Position numbers and translations under genes: made by a program. The notes beneath the pieces were generated by a model. The model saw only the letters and a program-made list of their open reading frames with translations. It was not told the origin of the DNA and searched no databases. From the NCBI RefSeq assembly GCF_030209375.1, contig NZ_JARVSC010000010.1, positions 1 to 64,000 of the forward strand: a DNA stretch of 64,000 nucleotides, in the 5' to 3' direction. Shown here in pieces: positions 4,292-52,122 of this stretch. Each line of letters starts with the position of its first letter. The first letter of the stretch is position 1. The stretch comes from Plantibacter sp. ME-Dv--P-122b. GTDB lineage: Bacteria > Actinomycetota > Actinomycetes > Actinomycetales > Microbacteriaceae.

Positions 4292-7200
4292 TGCGACTGC
4301 ACCGACTCACGCTGCAGGCCATCGGCCCGTACGCCGGTGAGCACACCATCGACTTCGTCGAACTCGGACGGGCGGGTCTGTTCCTGCTGGAAGGCCCGAC
4401 CGGCGCCGGCAAGTCCACGATCATCGACGCCATCGTCTTCGGGCTGTACGGCGAACTCGCCGGGACCGGGGCCAGCAAGGACCGCCTCCACTCGCACCAC
4501 GCGCAGCCCGGGACGGAACCGTTCGTGGAGCTCGTGTTCGAGACCGGGTCCGGCGTGTACCGGGTACGGCGGACGCCGGCCTACCAACGGCCGAAGCAGC
4601 GCGGTGCCGGCTTCACGCCGCAGCAGGCGAGCGCAACCCTCGTCCGCCTGACCGATCCCGACGCTCCGGCGGGAGAGACCCTGTCGACCCGCGCGCAGGA
4701 GATCGGTCCTGAGATCAGCCGGATCGTCGGTCTCACCCGGGAGCAGTTCGTCCAGACGATCGTCCTCCCGCAGGGCGAGTTCGCGAAGTTCCTCGCCGCC
4801 GGCGGTGAGGAGCGCAGCGAGCTGCTCCGGTCCCTGTTCGGGACGGAGCACTACGAGCGGCTCGCCAAGCATCTCGTCGAACAGCGACGACAGGCCCACC
4901 GCGACATCGAAGGGGCTCGCGAGGCGCTCGGCCGCGCGATCGCCCGGTTCGCGGGAGCGGCCGAGCTCGACGACGCACGGGAACTCGTCGCGGGCCGGGG
5001 AACGGACGCCCCGGCCGGGATGGATGCCGTGGCGACGGCTGACGCTCTCGGCGACGACGCCGCGACGGCCTCCGACCCGTCGACCGCAGCACCTGACCCG
5101 GAGGTCGACACCGACCAGGCGACCCTCGCGGTCCCGCTCGAACCCGATTCCGAAGACCTCGTCGGCGATGCCGGGCGCATCGTCGCCGTCCTCGAGCGCC
5201 ACGCCGCCGCCGACGCCTCGACCGCTGCCGAGGCGCGGGACGCTCTCGACCGCGCTCGCGCCGACCACACTGCCGCTCAGACGCTGCTCGCGTCCATCGA
5301 ACGTCGCGCAGAGCTGCTGACCGAGCGCGAACTGCTGTCGGTGGACGACGAACCGGTCGCGCGGCTCTCCGAGCGGATCGCGGCAGCGGCTCGGGCGGAC
5401 ACCGTGGCGTCCGCGCTCGCCGGAGCGGCCAGGGCATCGGCGGCGCTCGACGACGCCATCGCGTCGCTCGCCGCGGTGGAGGAGCAGGCTGACGAGGCGA
5501 TCGTCGCGCTCGACGACGCGTCCGTTGCTGCGCGCCGCGAATCCCTCACCGTTGAGCGGGCGTCGATGGCCGCCGTGCTGGTCCTCGAAGCCGCCGCCGC
5601 CGAGCGAGAGCTCGCGCTCGCAGCGCTCACTGAGGAGCTCGCGACGGTCGACGAACGACTCGCCGAGCTCGCAGCGGAACAGACACGACGAGACGCGCGC
5701 CGGGCAGTGCTCGGCTCGGCACCGGAGCGCGCGTCGCGTGCCGCCGCCGAGCTGGCCACGGCCGCCCGGTCCGTCGAGCGCGTGGCTGAACGCCGCGCGG
5801 TGCTGGATCGGGTGGACGCGGCCGACGAACGCCTCGCCGGGCTCGCCGACGAGGTCACCGAGGCCGCCACGGCCGCGAAGTCCGCGATCGAAACCGAGAC
5901 GTCGCTGCGTCTCCGCCGGATCGAGGGCATGGCGGGCGAGCTCGCCGCGGGCCTGCGGGACGGCGAGCCGTGCAGCGTCTGCGGGTCGCTGAGTCACCCG
6001 GCGCCCGCCGTGCTCGACGGAGACCACCCCGACGAGGACGCGGTCGACGCGGCGTCCGTCGTACGGGCCGATGCCGAGGCGACGATGCAGGCGGCGCAGA
6101 ACACCCGCGACATCGCTCGAGCCGAGCACCGTCGCCTCGTCGAGCAGTTCGTCGCGCTGGCCGACGACCCGAGCGACGTGGCTGCGACCGGCTCCACCGA
6201 CGATCCGACGGCAGCGACGACCGGCTTCGACCCGGTCACTGCGCGAGCGGCCGTCGAGGCGGCCGCTGCGGAGGCCGACCGGCAGCACGCGGAGGCCGTG
6301 GTCATCGCCGAGCTGGCGGACGCCGAGGTCGCGGAGGCCGGGCGCCTCGCGGACGAGCACCTGGCCGGCGTGGTCGCGGTGGCGGAACGCACTGCCACCC
6401 GGGCGACGCTGACCGAGCGGCTCGCCGCCGCGCAGCGCGTCCACGAGCAGGCCCGCGCCGAGGTGGCCGGCGCCCTCGACGGTCGGGCAGCCTCGCTGGC
6501 CGAGCTCGACGCGATGCTCGAGGCCGAGCTGTCCTCGCTGTCCCTGCTCGCGGCGGCACGGGCGACCGTCACCGACCGGCGGCAGCGTGACGCTGAGCGC
6601 ACGGTCGAGCTCGCGACGGCGCTCGAACGGGCCGGGTTCCCCGACCGCGCAGCCGCGGAGGCCGCAGCCATGACCGGCGTCGAGCGGGCGAGTGCCGAAG
6701 CGCGGGTGGCCGATCACCTGCGTCACACGACCGCGAACGCGGAAGCGCTCGCGAGCCCGGCCATCGCCGGTGTCGCCGGGGCCGAGACCCCCGACGTCGA
6801 AGCGACGGCCCGTCGACTGGCCGACGCCGAGGCGGCGGCAGACACGGCGACCGCAGCGGCCGCCGTCTCCGCGCGACGAGCGACCAACGCGGCGGCGGCC
6901 TGTACGGCCCTCGCCGAGGCGGCCGACGAGAACGCCGACGCGGTCCGCGAGGCCGCGGCCGTGGTCCGCCTCGCCGACGTGGTGTCGGCCACGGGTAGTG
7001 AGAACAGCACGAAGGTCACCCTCGGCACCTACGTCCTCCTGCGCCGCTTCGAGGACGTCGTGGCGGCGGCGAACGCGCGCCTGGAGTCGATGTCCGGAGG
7101 TCGCTACGAACTCGTCCGCAGCGACCTCAAGGAAGGACCGTCCCGCAGTCAGCGCGTCGGGTTGTCGCTCACGGTCCACGACCACCGGACCGACCGGCGT

Positions 7201-23165: not shown

Positions 23166-24251
23166 TCAGTGTTCGTGGGTGGTGCTCCATGGCGTGAAGG
23201 CGTCCGGGTAGTGCGCCCACGCCGCTGGCCCGGCGAGGAGTTCCTCGTCCGTCAGGGTGCAGGCGTGCAGGGCGGCGGTGATGGCGACCTCGTCGAGGTC
23301 GATCCCGGTGACGACGAGCTCCTGACCGAGCGGTGCGCCGGGGTCGTTCGTCTCGAACGACGTGGGTTCCAGATCGATCATCGAGCCGACGTGCTGCAGC
23401 ACCCCGACGCGGGAGGCGCGCGTCGCGAGGACGAGGAACCCCGCCGTACGGAGGACCTGTCCGAACCGCCCCGCCTCGATCGGTCCGTCGAAGCAGGCGA
23501 GGAGTCGTTCCGGGTGCATCGGTCGGGGGCTGTCGAACCGCAGGGTGGTCACGCGGTCGTGATCCACCCAGGGCCGGTGCTCGCCGTTCAGCATCGCGAT
23601 CCACCCGGGGGACGTGCTGAAGCGGTCCAGTTCGAAGGGGGAGTCGCGGTAGCGGGCGAGCGGCTCACGGGTGCTCACGGTGGCCGGAGCGCCGGGTGTG
23701 GCGCGCGGTCGGGCCGCGACCGGCTCGACCATCCGCGTCAGCGCCGTCGGGTTCAGATGGCTGAGGAGGGCGAGGAGCACCGCGAGTCGTTCGTGCGTCA
23801 CGCCGCGTCGACCTGCGACGGCGATGGTGTCCGCATACTCGAGCTGCTCCACGGTGATCATCGATCGTGCGGTGTACGCCGTGTCGCCGTCCTCGTCGTG
23901 GGTGACGTACTCGTCGTCCTGGAGGTCGTGCAGGAGATGGGCTGCGTCGACGACGGTCACGACGGCGTCCAGGACGGCCGTGTCGCGGTGCCCGAGGACG
24001 GCGGAGACCGCGTCGACGGGACGGACCGTGCTCCCGCAATCGAGGACGAGATGCCGGGGAGCGAGCGGGTGTCGTACGACGGCGTCGATGGCGTCGTCGA
24101 TGTCGGGGTGGGCGCTCTCGTTGTCATCCTGCCGCTCGATCGTGACGAGCGCCGCGGATCGTCCGGCGATCTGTCGGGCCACGGTGCGACGCTCCGGCGG
24201 GCAAGCGCCGAGGACGAGCGTCACGGTCAGCGGGATGCGAGGCGTGGTCAC
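23166..24251 (-). CDS. COG0523/CobW-family protein with degenerate GTPase motifs
   Basis: 361 aa from a GTG at 24251. The C-terminal half (about 215-355) is a CobW C-terminal domain: S-P-G-W-I-A-M-L-N-G, D-S-P-R-P-M-H-P-E-R-L and Q-E-L-V-V-T-G-I-D-L-D-E. The N-terminal G domain is recognisable (T-V-T-L-V-L-G..., H-L-V-L-D-C-G-S, V-V-D-A-A-H-L, Q-L-E-Y-A-D-T-I) but has lost essential motifs. The P-loop GxxGxGKTT reads G-A-C-P-P-E-R-R-T, the CxCC metal site is absent, and NKxD is A-G-R-R. It is divergent from zinc-free L36 across a perfect palindrome, so it should be induced by zinc limitation. Metal chaperone or scaffold is possible. Confidence 0.85.
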   Translation of the reverse strand: MTTPRIPLTVTLVLGACPPERRTVARQIAGRSAALVTIERQDDNESAHPDIDDAIDAVVRHPLAPRHLVLDCGSTVRPVDAVSAVLGHRDTAVLDAVVTVVDAAHLLHDLQDDEYVTHDEDGDTAYTARSMITVEQLEYADTIAVAGRRGVTHERLAVLLALLSHLNPTALTRMVEPVAARPRATPGAPATVSTREPLARYRDSPFELDRFSTSPGWIAMLNGEHRPWVDHDRVTTLRFDSPRPMHPERLLACFDGPIEAGRFGQVLRTAGFLVLATRASRVGVLQHVGSMIDLEPTSFETNDPGAPLGQELVVTGIDLDEVAITAALHACTLTDEELLAGPAAWAHYPDAFTPWSTTHEH

Positions 24252-24290
24252 GGCGGGTGCTCCTGGTCGATGGGGTGCTACAGTGCGTTC

Positions 24291-24311
24291 TGTTGAGAAC
24301 CGTTCTCAACA
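24291..24311. promoter_or_regulatory. Perfect 21-bp palindrome, candidate Zur operator
   Basis: TGTTGAGAAC (24291-24300), a central C, and the exact complement GTTCTCAACA (24302-24311). It contains a possible -35 (TTGAGA, 24293-24298) for rpmJ, with TAGCAC at 24315-24320 as -10. It separates two genes typical of Zur regulons. Identification with Zur is inferred from those genes, not from a match to a known consensus. Confidence 0.75.
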
Positions 24312-24344
24312 AGGTAGCACGCATCGTGATCACAGGAGGTCGCC

Positions 24345-24467
24345 ATGAAGGTCCGCGCATCACTCAAGTCGCTCAAGGACAAGCCGGGGTCGCAGATCGT
24401 CCGCCGCCGTGGCCGGGTGTTCGTCATCAACAAGCAGAACCCGCGGTGGAAGGGTCGCCAGGGCTGA
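24345..24467 (+). CDS. rpmJ: 50S ribosomal protein L36, zinc-free type
   Basis: 40 aa, starting [20 protein letters not shown] and containing [20 protein letters not shown]. The zinc-binding CxxC...CxxxxH of ordinary L36 is absent, so this is the Cys-minus paralogue (YkgO type). AGGAGGT (24334-24340) precedes the ATG by 4 nt. Expected to replace zinc-containing L36 when zinc is scarce, freeing zinc. Divergent from the COG0523 gene. Confidence 0.94.
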
Positions 24468-24470
24468 GTG

Positions 24471-24890
24471 TCAGCCGCGCACCACGTTCACGACGATGGT
24501 GACGACACCCAGTGCGCCGATGACGTACGCCCAGAAGCGGACGGGGATGAAGAAGAGCGTGGAGCTCGGACGGCTGTAGAGCTGCTCGCCGGTCTGCGGG
24601 TGGCGCACGGGGACGGCCTCCTGCTTCACGGTGATGCCGTGCTCGTTGACGTACGGCTGCGCGAGCGGCTGCCAGACGACGACCGGCCGCGGTGCGTCCA
24701 GCTTCGCCAGCGCGAACTTCCCGAAGGCCCAGCATGCGACGGCGCCGAGCAGGAACCCGATGCCGACGAACACCCCGGACTGCGCCGATCCGCCGTCGGG
24801 TGAGACGATCGCCTTGAGGAGGAAGCCTGCGCCCACGGAGAGCCCGAAGATCAGGAAGACGACGATGCCCCAGCGGGTCCAGATGATCAT
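24471..24890 (-). CDS. Small membrane protein of unknown function
   Basis: 139 aa. Hydrophobic segments at about residues 5-25, 38-58 and 112-135. The loop between segments 2 and 3 has a Y-V-N-E-H-G-I-T-V-K-Q-E hydrophilic stretch and H-P-Q-T-G-E-Q-L. Start at ATG 24890, with GAGGAG upstream. Convergent with rpmJ (3-nt gap). No family recognised. Confidence 0.7.
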   Translation of the reverse strand: MIIWTRWGIVVFLIFGLSVGAGFLLKAIVSPDGGSAQSGVFVGIGFLLGAVACWAFGKFALAKLDAPRPVVVWQPLAQPYVNEHGITVKQEAVPVRHPQTGEQLYSRPSSTLFFIPVRFWAYVIGALGVVTIVVNVVRG

Positions 24891-25021: not shown

Positions 25022-25035
25022 TGTTATCGCTCACA
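25022..25035. promoter_or_regulatory. LacI-type operator, distal site
   Basis: TGTTATCGCTCACA, whose complement TGTGAGCGATAACA closely resembles an E. coli lac operator core. It lies 90 bp (centre to centre) upstream of the proximal site at 25112-25125. Two sites at this spacing could support repression by looping. Confidence 0.65.
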
Positions 25036-25096: not shown

Positions 25097-25126
25097 TTGT
25101 GTGGCGAGAATTGTGAGCGCTAACAT
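25097..25126 (+). promoter_or_regulatory. Sugar-importer promoter with overlapping LacI-type operator
   Basis: TTGTGT (25097-25102), an 18-bp spacer and TAACAT (25121-25126). The operator TGTGAGCGCTAACA (25112-25125) covers the -10 box. A bound LacI-family protein would block RNA polymerase. The rest of the 320-bp gap 24891-25210 holds no convincing gene. Confidence 0.65.
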
Positions 25127-25210: not shown

Positions 25211-26194
25211 GTGAACAAGAAGATTCTGGGCGGAGCCCTGGCCGGCGCCATGCTGCTGGCGCTCGTCGGCTGTGCATCGGGCGGCGACGATTCCGCTGGA
25301 GGCGCGAAGGACCCGTCGGACATCGTCGTCGGATTCGCGCAGGTCGGTGCGGAGAGCGGTTGGCGCACGGCCAACACGAAGGACATCCAGTCCGCGTTCA
25401 AGGATGCCGGCATCGAGCTGAAGTTCTCCGACGCGCAGCAGAAGCAGGAGAACCAGATCAAGGCGATCCGCTCCTACATCTCGCAGCAGGTCGACGTCAT
25501 CGCCTTCTCGCCGGTCGTCGAGTCCGGCTGGGACGCGGTCCTCAAGGAGGCGAAGGACGCCGGCATTCCTGTCGTCCTCACCGACCGGGCCGTGGACTCC
25601 AAGGACGACAGCCTGTACGAGAGCTTCCTCGGCTCCGACTTCGTGCTCGAGGGGCAGAAGGCCGGCGAATGGCTCGTGAACGAGTACAAGGACACGACCG
25701 AGCCGGTCAAGATCATGCAGCTCGAGGGCACGACCGGTGCCGCTCCGGCGATCGACCGGGCCGAGGGCTTCGCCGAGGCCATCAAGGACGACGGCAAGTT
25801 CGAGGTCGTCGCATCGCAGACGGGCGACTTCACGCGGGCCGGCGGCAAGCAGGTCACCGAGGCGCTCCTGAAGTCCAACCCGGACGTCGACGTGATCTAC
25901 GCGCACAACGACGACATGGGCCTCGGCGCGATCGAAGCCGTCGAGGCGGCCGGTCTGAAGCCGGGCACCGACATCAAGATCATCACCGTCGACGCGGTGA
26001 AGGACGGCATGCAGGCGCTCGCCGACGGCAAGATCAACTACATCGTGGAGTGCTCGCCGCTCCTCGGGAACCAGCTCGTCGACGTGGTCAAGAAGGTCGT
26101 CGCCGGTGAGCCGGTCGAGAAGCGGATCCTCACGGAGGAGACGACGTTCGACCAGGAGCAGGCCAAGGCGGCACTGCCCGATCGCAAGTACTAG
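25211..26194 (+). CDS. ytfQ: Sugar ABC transporter substrate-binding lipoprotein, YtfQ-like
   Basis: 327 aa from GTG 25211 with AAGGAGG upstream. Lipobox L-V-G-C (Cys21) anchors it to the outer face of the membrane. The mature protein has the two-lobe periplasmic-binding-protein (family 1, ribose/galactose type) pattern: I-V-V-G-F-A-Q-V-G-A-E-S-G-W-R, Q-V-D-V-I-A-F-S-P-V-V and V-V-L-T-D-R-A-V. G-A-E-S-G-W-R-T-A-N is characteristic of YtfQ, which binds galactofuranose in E. coli, so a furanose sugar is the best guess. First gene of ytfQ-ytfR-ytfT-yjfF. Confidence 0.92.
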   Translation: MNKKILGGALAGAMLLALVGCASGGDDSAGGAKDPSDIVVGFAQVGAESGWRTANTKDIQSAFKDAGIELKFSDAQQKQENQIKAIRSYISQQVDVIAFSPVVESGWDAVLKEAKDAGIPVVLTDRAVDSKDDSLYESFLGSDFVLEGQKAGEWLVNEYKDTTEPVKIMQLEGTTGAAPAIDRAEGFAEAIKDDGKFEVVASQTGDFTRAGGKQVTEALLKSNPDVDVIYAHNDDMGLGAIEAVEAAGLKPGTDIKIITVDAVKDGMQALADGKINYIVECSPLLGNQLVDVVKKVVAGEPVEKRILTEETTFDQEQAKAALPDRKY

Positions 26195-51975: not shown

Positions 51976-52085
51976 GGTGCTGCTCCTCGATTCTGGGATC
52001 GGGAGTCCGAGCCGTCGTTGGCCCGGGATCCGTGATGACCGGGAAACCGCGGTCGATCCCTGCTGTTTTCAGTGGGTGTGGAAAC

Positions 52086-52122
52086 AGTATTCAATAAGTA
52101 CAGGAAGCTTGCAAATATTTTC
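52086..52122 (-). promoter_or_regulatory. Candidate promoter and AT-rich operator of the muropeptide operon
   Basis: On the minus strand, TTGCAA (52109-52114) and AATACT (52086-52091) are separated by 17 bp. An AT-rich near-palindrome GCAAATATTTTC (52111-52122) overlaps the -35. RpiR-family operators are commonly AT-rich dyads, so it may be the regulator's site. Support is positional only. Confidence 0.35.

Follow-up and report, generated by a model that had tools for sequence, protein, structure and literature searches.

Introduction

The Zur sites of actinobacteria are described as conserved 21-bp palindromes with a one-base centre. Corynebacterium glutamicum Zur binds such 10-1-10 sites in a zinc-dependent manner, and a single box can serve two divergent genes (PMC2823685). 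Also in the regulon are znuACB, a gene of the COG0523 type and paralogues of ribosomal proteins (PMC2823685, PMC7174638). The COG0523-like protein MRF (MSMEG_6069/Rv0106) is under Zur control beside genes for zinc-free ribosomal proteins (PMC7174638, PMC13418864). Rv0106 is described as having no GTPase motifs (PMC2770081); MRF recruits Mpy to zinc-free ribosomes, carries a CxxC motif and is subject to Clp turnover when zinc is present (PMC13418864). Here we analyse a perfect 21-bp dyad between two divergent genes of Plantibacter sp. ME-Dv--P-122b, one encoding a zinc-free ribosomal protein L36 (rpmJ) and the other a CobW-like protein. The window is the whole stretch of 64,000 nucleotides that was analysed (contig NZ_JARVSC010000010.1, positions 1 to 64,000).

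Leifsonia xyli belongs to the same family as Plantibacter. It is among the genomes in which ribosomal proteins are predicted to be part of the Zur regulon (PMC2823685, PMC7174638).

Results

The two genes diverge across a gap of 93 bp, in which 39 nt separate the dyad from the GTG of the CobW-like gene and 33 nt separate it from the rpmJ start codon, ATG (Table 1). A first-pass annotation of this DNA had taken the palindrome for a likely Zur operator. Our analysis supports that assignment as a prediction: with a probability of about 0.9 the locus would be a Zur-controlled zinc-starvation divergon, with a predicted operator shared by rpmJ and the CobW-like gene. The perfect dyad and the zinc-free L36 were also correctly annotated. 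The rpmJ product reaches 79.1 bits with the NCBIfam type B L36 model NF002021 (cut-off 70) and lacks the zinc ligands; a second L36 gene, of the Cys type, is encoded in the same genome at C7:599866 (contig:position).

The dyad is a box of the published actinobacterial Zur type and, judged by sequence, a predicted operator. Its left half is identical to that of TGTTGAGAACAGTTTTCAGTA (MSMEG_1122) and its right half to that of TACTGAAAACTGTTCTCAACA (MSMEG_1123), two sites from the Mycobacterium smegmatis list, trimmed to 21 bp (PMC7174638). Fourteen published sites, 3 of C. glutamicum and 11 of M. smegmatis, picked from larger lists, served to train a position weight matrix (PWM); the M. smegmatis sites used are motif predictions, and the adhA site, which is not bound, the cg2911 site and those M. 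smegmatis sites that do not lie near zinc genes were omitted. With 24.9 bits the dyad scored highest of 75,960 positions (window and znu region), and when MSMEG_1122 and MSMEG_1123, the training sites closest to it, were left out it still topped the window at 21.3 bits. Because its halves equal listed M. smegmatis halves and its PWM score is high, the dyad belongs to the known kind of Zur box. The half-site had been annotated as not obviously matching published Zur boxes and possibly a lineage-specific variant; the comparison with the published sites contradicts the former and rules out the latter. The box shares the 21-bp 10-1-10 form of the actinobacterial sites and, as at C. glutamicum cg0042/cg0043, it stands between divergent genes, but it differs from the published boxes in having GAGAAC half-sites with TGT ends. 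The second-best PWM match of the window is GTGTGGAAACAGTATTCAATA at 52076–52096, with about 11 bits, far under the dyad.

Boxes of the same class are found at other zinc genes. The pattern TGANAANNNTTNTCA, with at most one mismatch, has 7 sites in the 3.92-Mb genome versus 3 for its reversed control, and four of the seven score above 20 bits with the PWM: the dyad, C9:7011, C7:246359 and C13:129165. The box at C9:7011 lies upstream of a znuA-znuC-znuB-like operon with a FUR-family gene at its end; the ZnuACB-like proteins match zinc/manganese ABC models, below the cut-offs. At C7:246359–246373 (about position 4357 of locus L184) the box occupies a gap of about 50 bp between aztB-aztC and the divergent aztA, an arrangement resembling that of cg0042/cg0043. 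The products of aztA, aztB and aztC each exceed their NCBIfam cut-offs, and the score of this box falls to 18.4 bits when two of the 14 training sites are omitted. The box at C13:129165 is upstream of a FecCD permease, a binding protein and an ATPase, which by sequence form a candidate Zur-controlled importer, perhaps for a zinc metallophore. These transporter genes span C13 126140–129211 (L183 6141–9212), and their box, at 129162–129182 (L183 9163–9183), is a perfect Zur-type box of 33.5 bits that was found in 3 of the 7 Plantibacter genomes. The sites on C6, on C10 and at C9:148005 were judged to be chance matches, with PWM scores of at most 2.9 bits and no zinc gene nearby by eye. Unlike known Zur regulons, only one of the four boxed places in this genome has an intact ribosomal gene (L36), and one further box precedes a FecCD-type transporter. 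The scan covers only the four strong sites, and zinc-free ribosomal proteins lacking a box would escape it.

Two FUR-family proteins were found in the genome. One, of 88.6 bits, belongs to the znu operon, and inspection by eye shows in it two CxxC pairs as well as a cluster of His; the other stands beside a partial gene whose product matches catalase (432.9 bits, below the cut-off).

A Zur-type box occupies the gap between rpmJ and the CobW-like gene in all seven Plantibacter genomes. Throughout, the left arm is invariant in its outer nine bases and the right arm in all ten, and the two bases between these conserved parts vary. The dyad-linked rpmJ is intact in six of the seven genomes. In the remaining one, G175, it has lost its start codon and frame, with dyad and CobW-like gene both intact. 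Retention of the box where its rpmJ is broken suggests that it also serves the CobW-like gene. A second type-B rpmJ of G175 is intact under the Zur-type box of a FecCD locus (C1:546018–546172, L186). The loss appears reciprocal: in the window genome the intact copy is that at the dyad, and an apparent remnant (by eye) of the second rpmJ follows the C13 box. G342 keeps both copies intact. Six of the seven dyad copies are intact and G175 keeps the other, which leaves one or more zinc-free L36 genes under a Zur-type box in every Plantibacter genome.

The association extends to relatives, as seen in 30 fetched loci of the family and in a set of 36 named actinobacterial loci; the two sets are taken to share about six genomes (named loci L113, L115, L122, L137, L140, L147). 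In all 30 family loci, window included, the best PWM site directly precedes the CobW-like gene or the rpmJ-cobW pair. In the named set the gap makes up about 3% of the sequence and holds the best site of the locus in 35 of 36 cases, with at least 10 bits in 35 and at least 15 bits in 30. A Zur-type site of at least 12 bits was present within 400 bp upstream of 28 of 30 type-B L36 genes. Those of L106 (genome G070) and L109 (G186) are without such a site, in L108 (G133) it is 184 bp away, and none of these three genomes has a CobW-like match in the family search.

Could the dyad belong to another regulator, such as the second FUR-family protein, LexA or some other dyad binder, with a coincidental likeness to Zur boxes? 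It is the longest perfect palindrome of the window, but such a palindrome is not rare in itself, since at least one with 10-bp arms arose in 30 of 60 Markov simulations of this GC-rich sequence. Genome-wide, the pattern TTGAGAACNGTTCTCAA matched two places, the dyad (0 mismatches) and C13:129164 (3 mismatches), and its reversed control matched equally often. Both results leave room for a different binder. However, an AT-rich palindrome of this arm length (at least 6 A/T of 10), which the dyad is, arose in none of the 60 simulations, and the dyad fits the matrix of published sites. That the znu and azt genes share this class of box, and that such boxes precede zinc-free L36, also speaks against a different regulator, which we consider very improbable. 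Within the window, TTGAGAACNGTTCTCAA with up to three mismatches matched once, versus 0.03 matches expected from shuffles. The LexA box has a longer spacer than the dyad, and LexA was rejected as an example of another palindrome binder. An RNA hairpin or terminator was rejected as the meaning of the dyad since a scan of the locus for these structures found none.

The annotation of the leftward gene as a COG0523/CobW family member was right as to fold and C-terminal domain, but the product is not an ordinary CobW/YciC GTPase, the P-loop and the metal motif being gone. The CobW_C domain scores 48.2 bits (cut-off 22). The nucleotide-binding domain reaches 19.4–20.7 bits, about at the Pfam cut-off of 20.7, and its match begins at profile position 69, past the end of the P-loop. 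An AlphaFold2 model (predicted local distance difference test score, 86.3; predicted TM-score, 0.85) has YjiA as its best solved structural match, and a sequence search of solved structures returned weak YjiA matches only. The protein is accordingly modelled as a COG0523 (G3E) fold with a CobW_C domain. It shares this fold, the CobW_C domain and the link to zinc starvation with the COG0523 zinc GTPases (ZigA/YciC, YjiA), but differs from them in the loss of the P-loop (GxxGxGK[ST]) and of GCxCC. A search of the genome with CobW models gave three matches over the cut-off, including this gene; the others are C8:318852, which reads as Ffh by eye, and C6:40776.

The motif losses are shared by relatives. 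Among the 30 family loci a P-loop is present only in L021 and C..C in none; the frame of L009 lacks the N-terminal part, and its P-loop region is not judgeable. None of the 36 named actinobacterial loci has the P-loop or GCICC, and three of these proteins carry C..C elsewhere. In proteobacterial homologues, which served as canonical control, the P-loop was found in 32 of 34 and GCICC in 34 of 34; both loci without P-loop (L149, L153) begin at contig ends. GxC.PER occurs in 33 of the 36 named loci. Since the peptide patterns used to find these loci contain G[AT]C[PAG]P, the absence of the P-loop and the conservation of GxC are partly selected there. A motif-free family search found GxC in 14 and C.PER in 11 of 18 rows of the window group, and GxCxPER occupies the Walker A position in most of the clade of the CobW-like protein. 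The window protein is 96% identical to its counterpart in P. flavus VKM Ac-2504. A ratio of nonsynonymous to synonymous substitution rates of 0.10–0.15 in all ten Plantibacter pairs indicates purifying selection, which together with a complete frame in all seven genomes rules out a pseudogene.

The CobW-like protein could still be a zinc-handling factor, either a metallochaperone or a competitor, that uses other ligands and shares the Zur operator with rpmJ only because both are zinc-starvation genes. Against this, C..C and GCICC are absent from the family and named loci, respectively, and the P-loop is missing from all family loci but one, which means that a chaperone cycle driven by GTP could not operate in its known form. 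In 42 of the 43 genomes that have it, the gene is also accompanied by one for a zinc-free ribosomal protein. We regard a zinc-handling function as possible but doubtful, and somewhat less likely than a role at the ribosome resembling that of MRF.

MRF and the CobW-like protein are both COG0523-like, have lost the GTPase motifs and are encoded under a Zur-type box next to a gene for a zinc-free ribosomal protein. Of 148 genomes in the class, 43 gave a match to the MRF model (NF047431), and in 7 the match exceeds the cut-off. The P-loop was present in none of the 30 MRF-model loci that were fetched, and 28 of them lie near ribosomal-protein genes of types having zinc-free forms, as judged by loose patterns. 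The two differ in that C..C is present in all 30 MRF-model loci, of which only 7 pass the cut-off, versus none of the 30 window-family loci, and in that the partner of the CobW-like gene is L36. They also form separate clades. A tree of 88 rows resolved four groups, each on one side of a branch in 100% of 200 bootstrap trees: that of the window protein, a second one from Microbacteriaceae, the hits of the MRF model and the canonical COG0523 proteins. Near-duplicates had been dropped and the rows thinned to 88; canonical rows were chosen for their P-loop, L219 and L224 being dropped for lacking one. If loss of the P-loop is irreversible several losses are needed; counted without a root, the minimum is two changes. 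The window genome encodes a long HPF, and no Zur-type box was found in the 2-kb stretch around its gene.

The second Microbacteriaceae group of COG0523-like proteins comprises 11 rows (L021–L023, L025, L026, L028–L032, L034). Ten of them, all but L023, are beside a zinc-free L36 by pattern, and the group is without C..C. L021 retains an intact P-loop and is a possible intermediate.

The pairing with zinc-free L36 is close. In the family search the CobW-like protein was found in 43 of 199 Microbacteriaceae genomes, that of the window included. Type-B and canonical L36 separate by score, with at least 60.8 versus at most 54.2 bits among the matches listed, and a threshold of 60 bits was set by us for type B; 41 genomes pass the curated cut-off. 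By this threshold type-B L36 is present in 53 of the 199 genomes and co-occurs with the CobW-like protein in 42 (Fisher p 1e-31, without a phylogenetic correction). G082 is the sole genome with a CobW-like match and no type-B L36, and its match is short and C-terminal only. The two genes are adjacent in 39 of the 42 pairs, 38 divergent and one on the same strand. By pattern match a zinc-free-type L36, or the remnant in G175, is next door in 29 of the 30 family loci, and a divergent type-B L36 adjoins the CobW-like gene in 34 of the 36 named loci by strict count. The patterns for ribosomal-protein neighbours are loose, and zinc ligands were checked for the L36 neighbours only. A literature search, with thin coverage of subscription journals, found no earlier account of this pairing.

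Such specific pairing with L36, where MRF-model loci are instead mostly near L28/L33/S14/S18/L31 patterns, could also point to an assembly or exchange factor through which zinc-free L36 replaces zinc L36, rather than to a hibernation factor. However, G175 keeps the CobW-like gene and the dyad although the adjacent rpmJ is broken and its other type-B L36 is elsewhere, and 11 of the 53 genomes with type-B L36 have no CobW-like match. The case of G175 is consistent with a factor for whichever type-B L36 is present, as well as with one of broader action. A dedicated L36 factor seems unlikely to us, slightly more so than a zinc-handling function.

Table 1. Features of the divergon between rpmJ and the CobW-like gene (window coordinates).
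Feature	Position	Strand	Remarks
COG0523/CobW-like pseudo-GTPase	23166–24251	−	361 aa; GTG start; GACPPER at Walker A position
CAGGAG, likely ribosome-binding site of CobW-like gene	24260–24265	−	read from sequence
GTGCTAC, left arm of outer 7-bp inverted repeat	24275–24281	.	not centred on operator
Zur operator (predicted), perfect 21-bp dyad TGTTGAGAACCGTTCTCAACA	24291–24311	.	TGTTGAGAAC-C-GTTCTCAACA, 10-1-10; sequence, PWM
TTGAGA, possible rpmJ −35 within operator	24293–24298	+	sequence; unconfirmed
GTAGCAC, right arm of outer 7-bp inverted repeat	24314–24320	.	pairs with GTGCTAC 24275–24281
TAGCAC, candidate rpmJ −10	24315–24320	+	16-bp spacer from TTGAGA; sequence; unconfirmed
AGGAGG, rpmJ ribosome-binding site	24334–24339	+	read from sequence
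rpmJ, zinc-free (C−) ribosomal protein L36	24345–24467	+	40 aa; no Cys, no His

The outer inverted repeat that flanks the dyad is intact in four of five aligned Plantibacter gaps; its right arm reads GTAGCAC in four and at least TAGCAC in all five. Elsewhere in the window, inverted LacI-type operator-like stretches, TGTTATCGCTCACA and TTGTGAGCGCTAACA, lie at 25022–25035 and 25112–25126, upstream of an apparent sugar-binding ABC transporter gene at 25211.

Discussion

In view of the above the following mechanism can be considered. Zinc-loaded Zur, most likely the FUR-family protein of the znu operon, would bind the dyad and repress both divergent genes. When zinc drops, Zur would leave the dyad. 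The rpmJ gene would then supply zinc-free L36, which replaces the zinc-binding L36, so that ribosomal zinc is spared or released. The GTPase-dead COG0523-fold protein would work with the remodelled ribosome, likely as an MRF analogue that helps long HPF to bind zinc-free ribosomes. As it lacks the CxxC site through which MRF would be turned over in the presence of zinc, remodelling and hibernation would here depend on Zur alone. We infer Zur binding, the response to zinc, which protein binds and what the CobW-like protein does at the ribosome. The last step is the most tentative: the partner gene, the parallel with MRF and the presence of a long HPF suggest that the CobW-like protein may function like MRF, though it is not classed as MRF, and we hold this for somewhat less than an even chance.

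Several observations weigh against this account. The innermost base pair of the dyad is broken in the other six Plantibacter genomes, the perfect 10-1-10 form being confined to the window genome, and 24.9 bits is near the low end of the published training sites (23.0–34.0). The exact core of the dyad, for which the first-pass annotation had proposed a search at other zinc genes, was found nowhere else in the genome by pattern search; what stands at the znuACB-like, aztA/aztB and FecCD genes are boxes of the same class, and the check by which absence of the dyad from other zinc genes would count against a Zur operator thus comes out in favour of one only in a looser form. The dyad had also been said to overlap the rpmJ −35 box. 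TTGAGA is possible as such, but the promoter scan of 24200–24520 recognised no sigma-70-like promoter at its threshold. The Zur candidate falls below all curated NCBIfam cut-offs (at best 64 bits, with the Fur model; E. coli Zur, 49.8 versus 167). Because no curated cut-off was passed, its name rests on its position in the operon, the ligand-like residues seen by eye and the boxes. As for the CobW-like protein, it scores 62.1 bits with the MRF model versus a cut-off of 375, and higher with that of ZigA (111 bits); in the tree it falls outside the MRF clade. Membership in MRF is ruled out by this score, the clade and the missing CxxC. NKxD is absent as well, but this is weak evidence since the pattern is present in just 12 of 34 canonical homologues. 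The genomes with type-B L36 and no CobW-like match, mentioned above, count here too.

The operator is ordinary, and loss of GTPase motifs is already known for Rv0106/MRF. What is noteworthy is that a COG0523 protein, GTPase-dead and free of the metal site, accompanies one particular zinc-free ribosomal protein across many genera. This carries the MRF theme past CxxC-bearing proteins, and makes a plant-associated, non-mycobacterial genus available for asking about action on the ribosome and about the dispensability of the CxxC zinc check of MRF. It is conceivable, though on balance we think it unlikely, that a Micrococcales-centred COG0523 clade has swapped the P-loop for GxCxPER in most members and dropped the metal site to become a zinc-insensitive partner of ribosomes with zinc-free L36, a second dead lineage beside MRF. 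If this is true, remodelling and hibernation would be coupled through Zur and not through two zinc checkpoints. Labels such as "CobW GTPase" or "zinc chaperone" are probably mistaken for genes of this kind.
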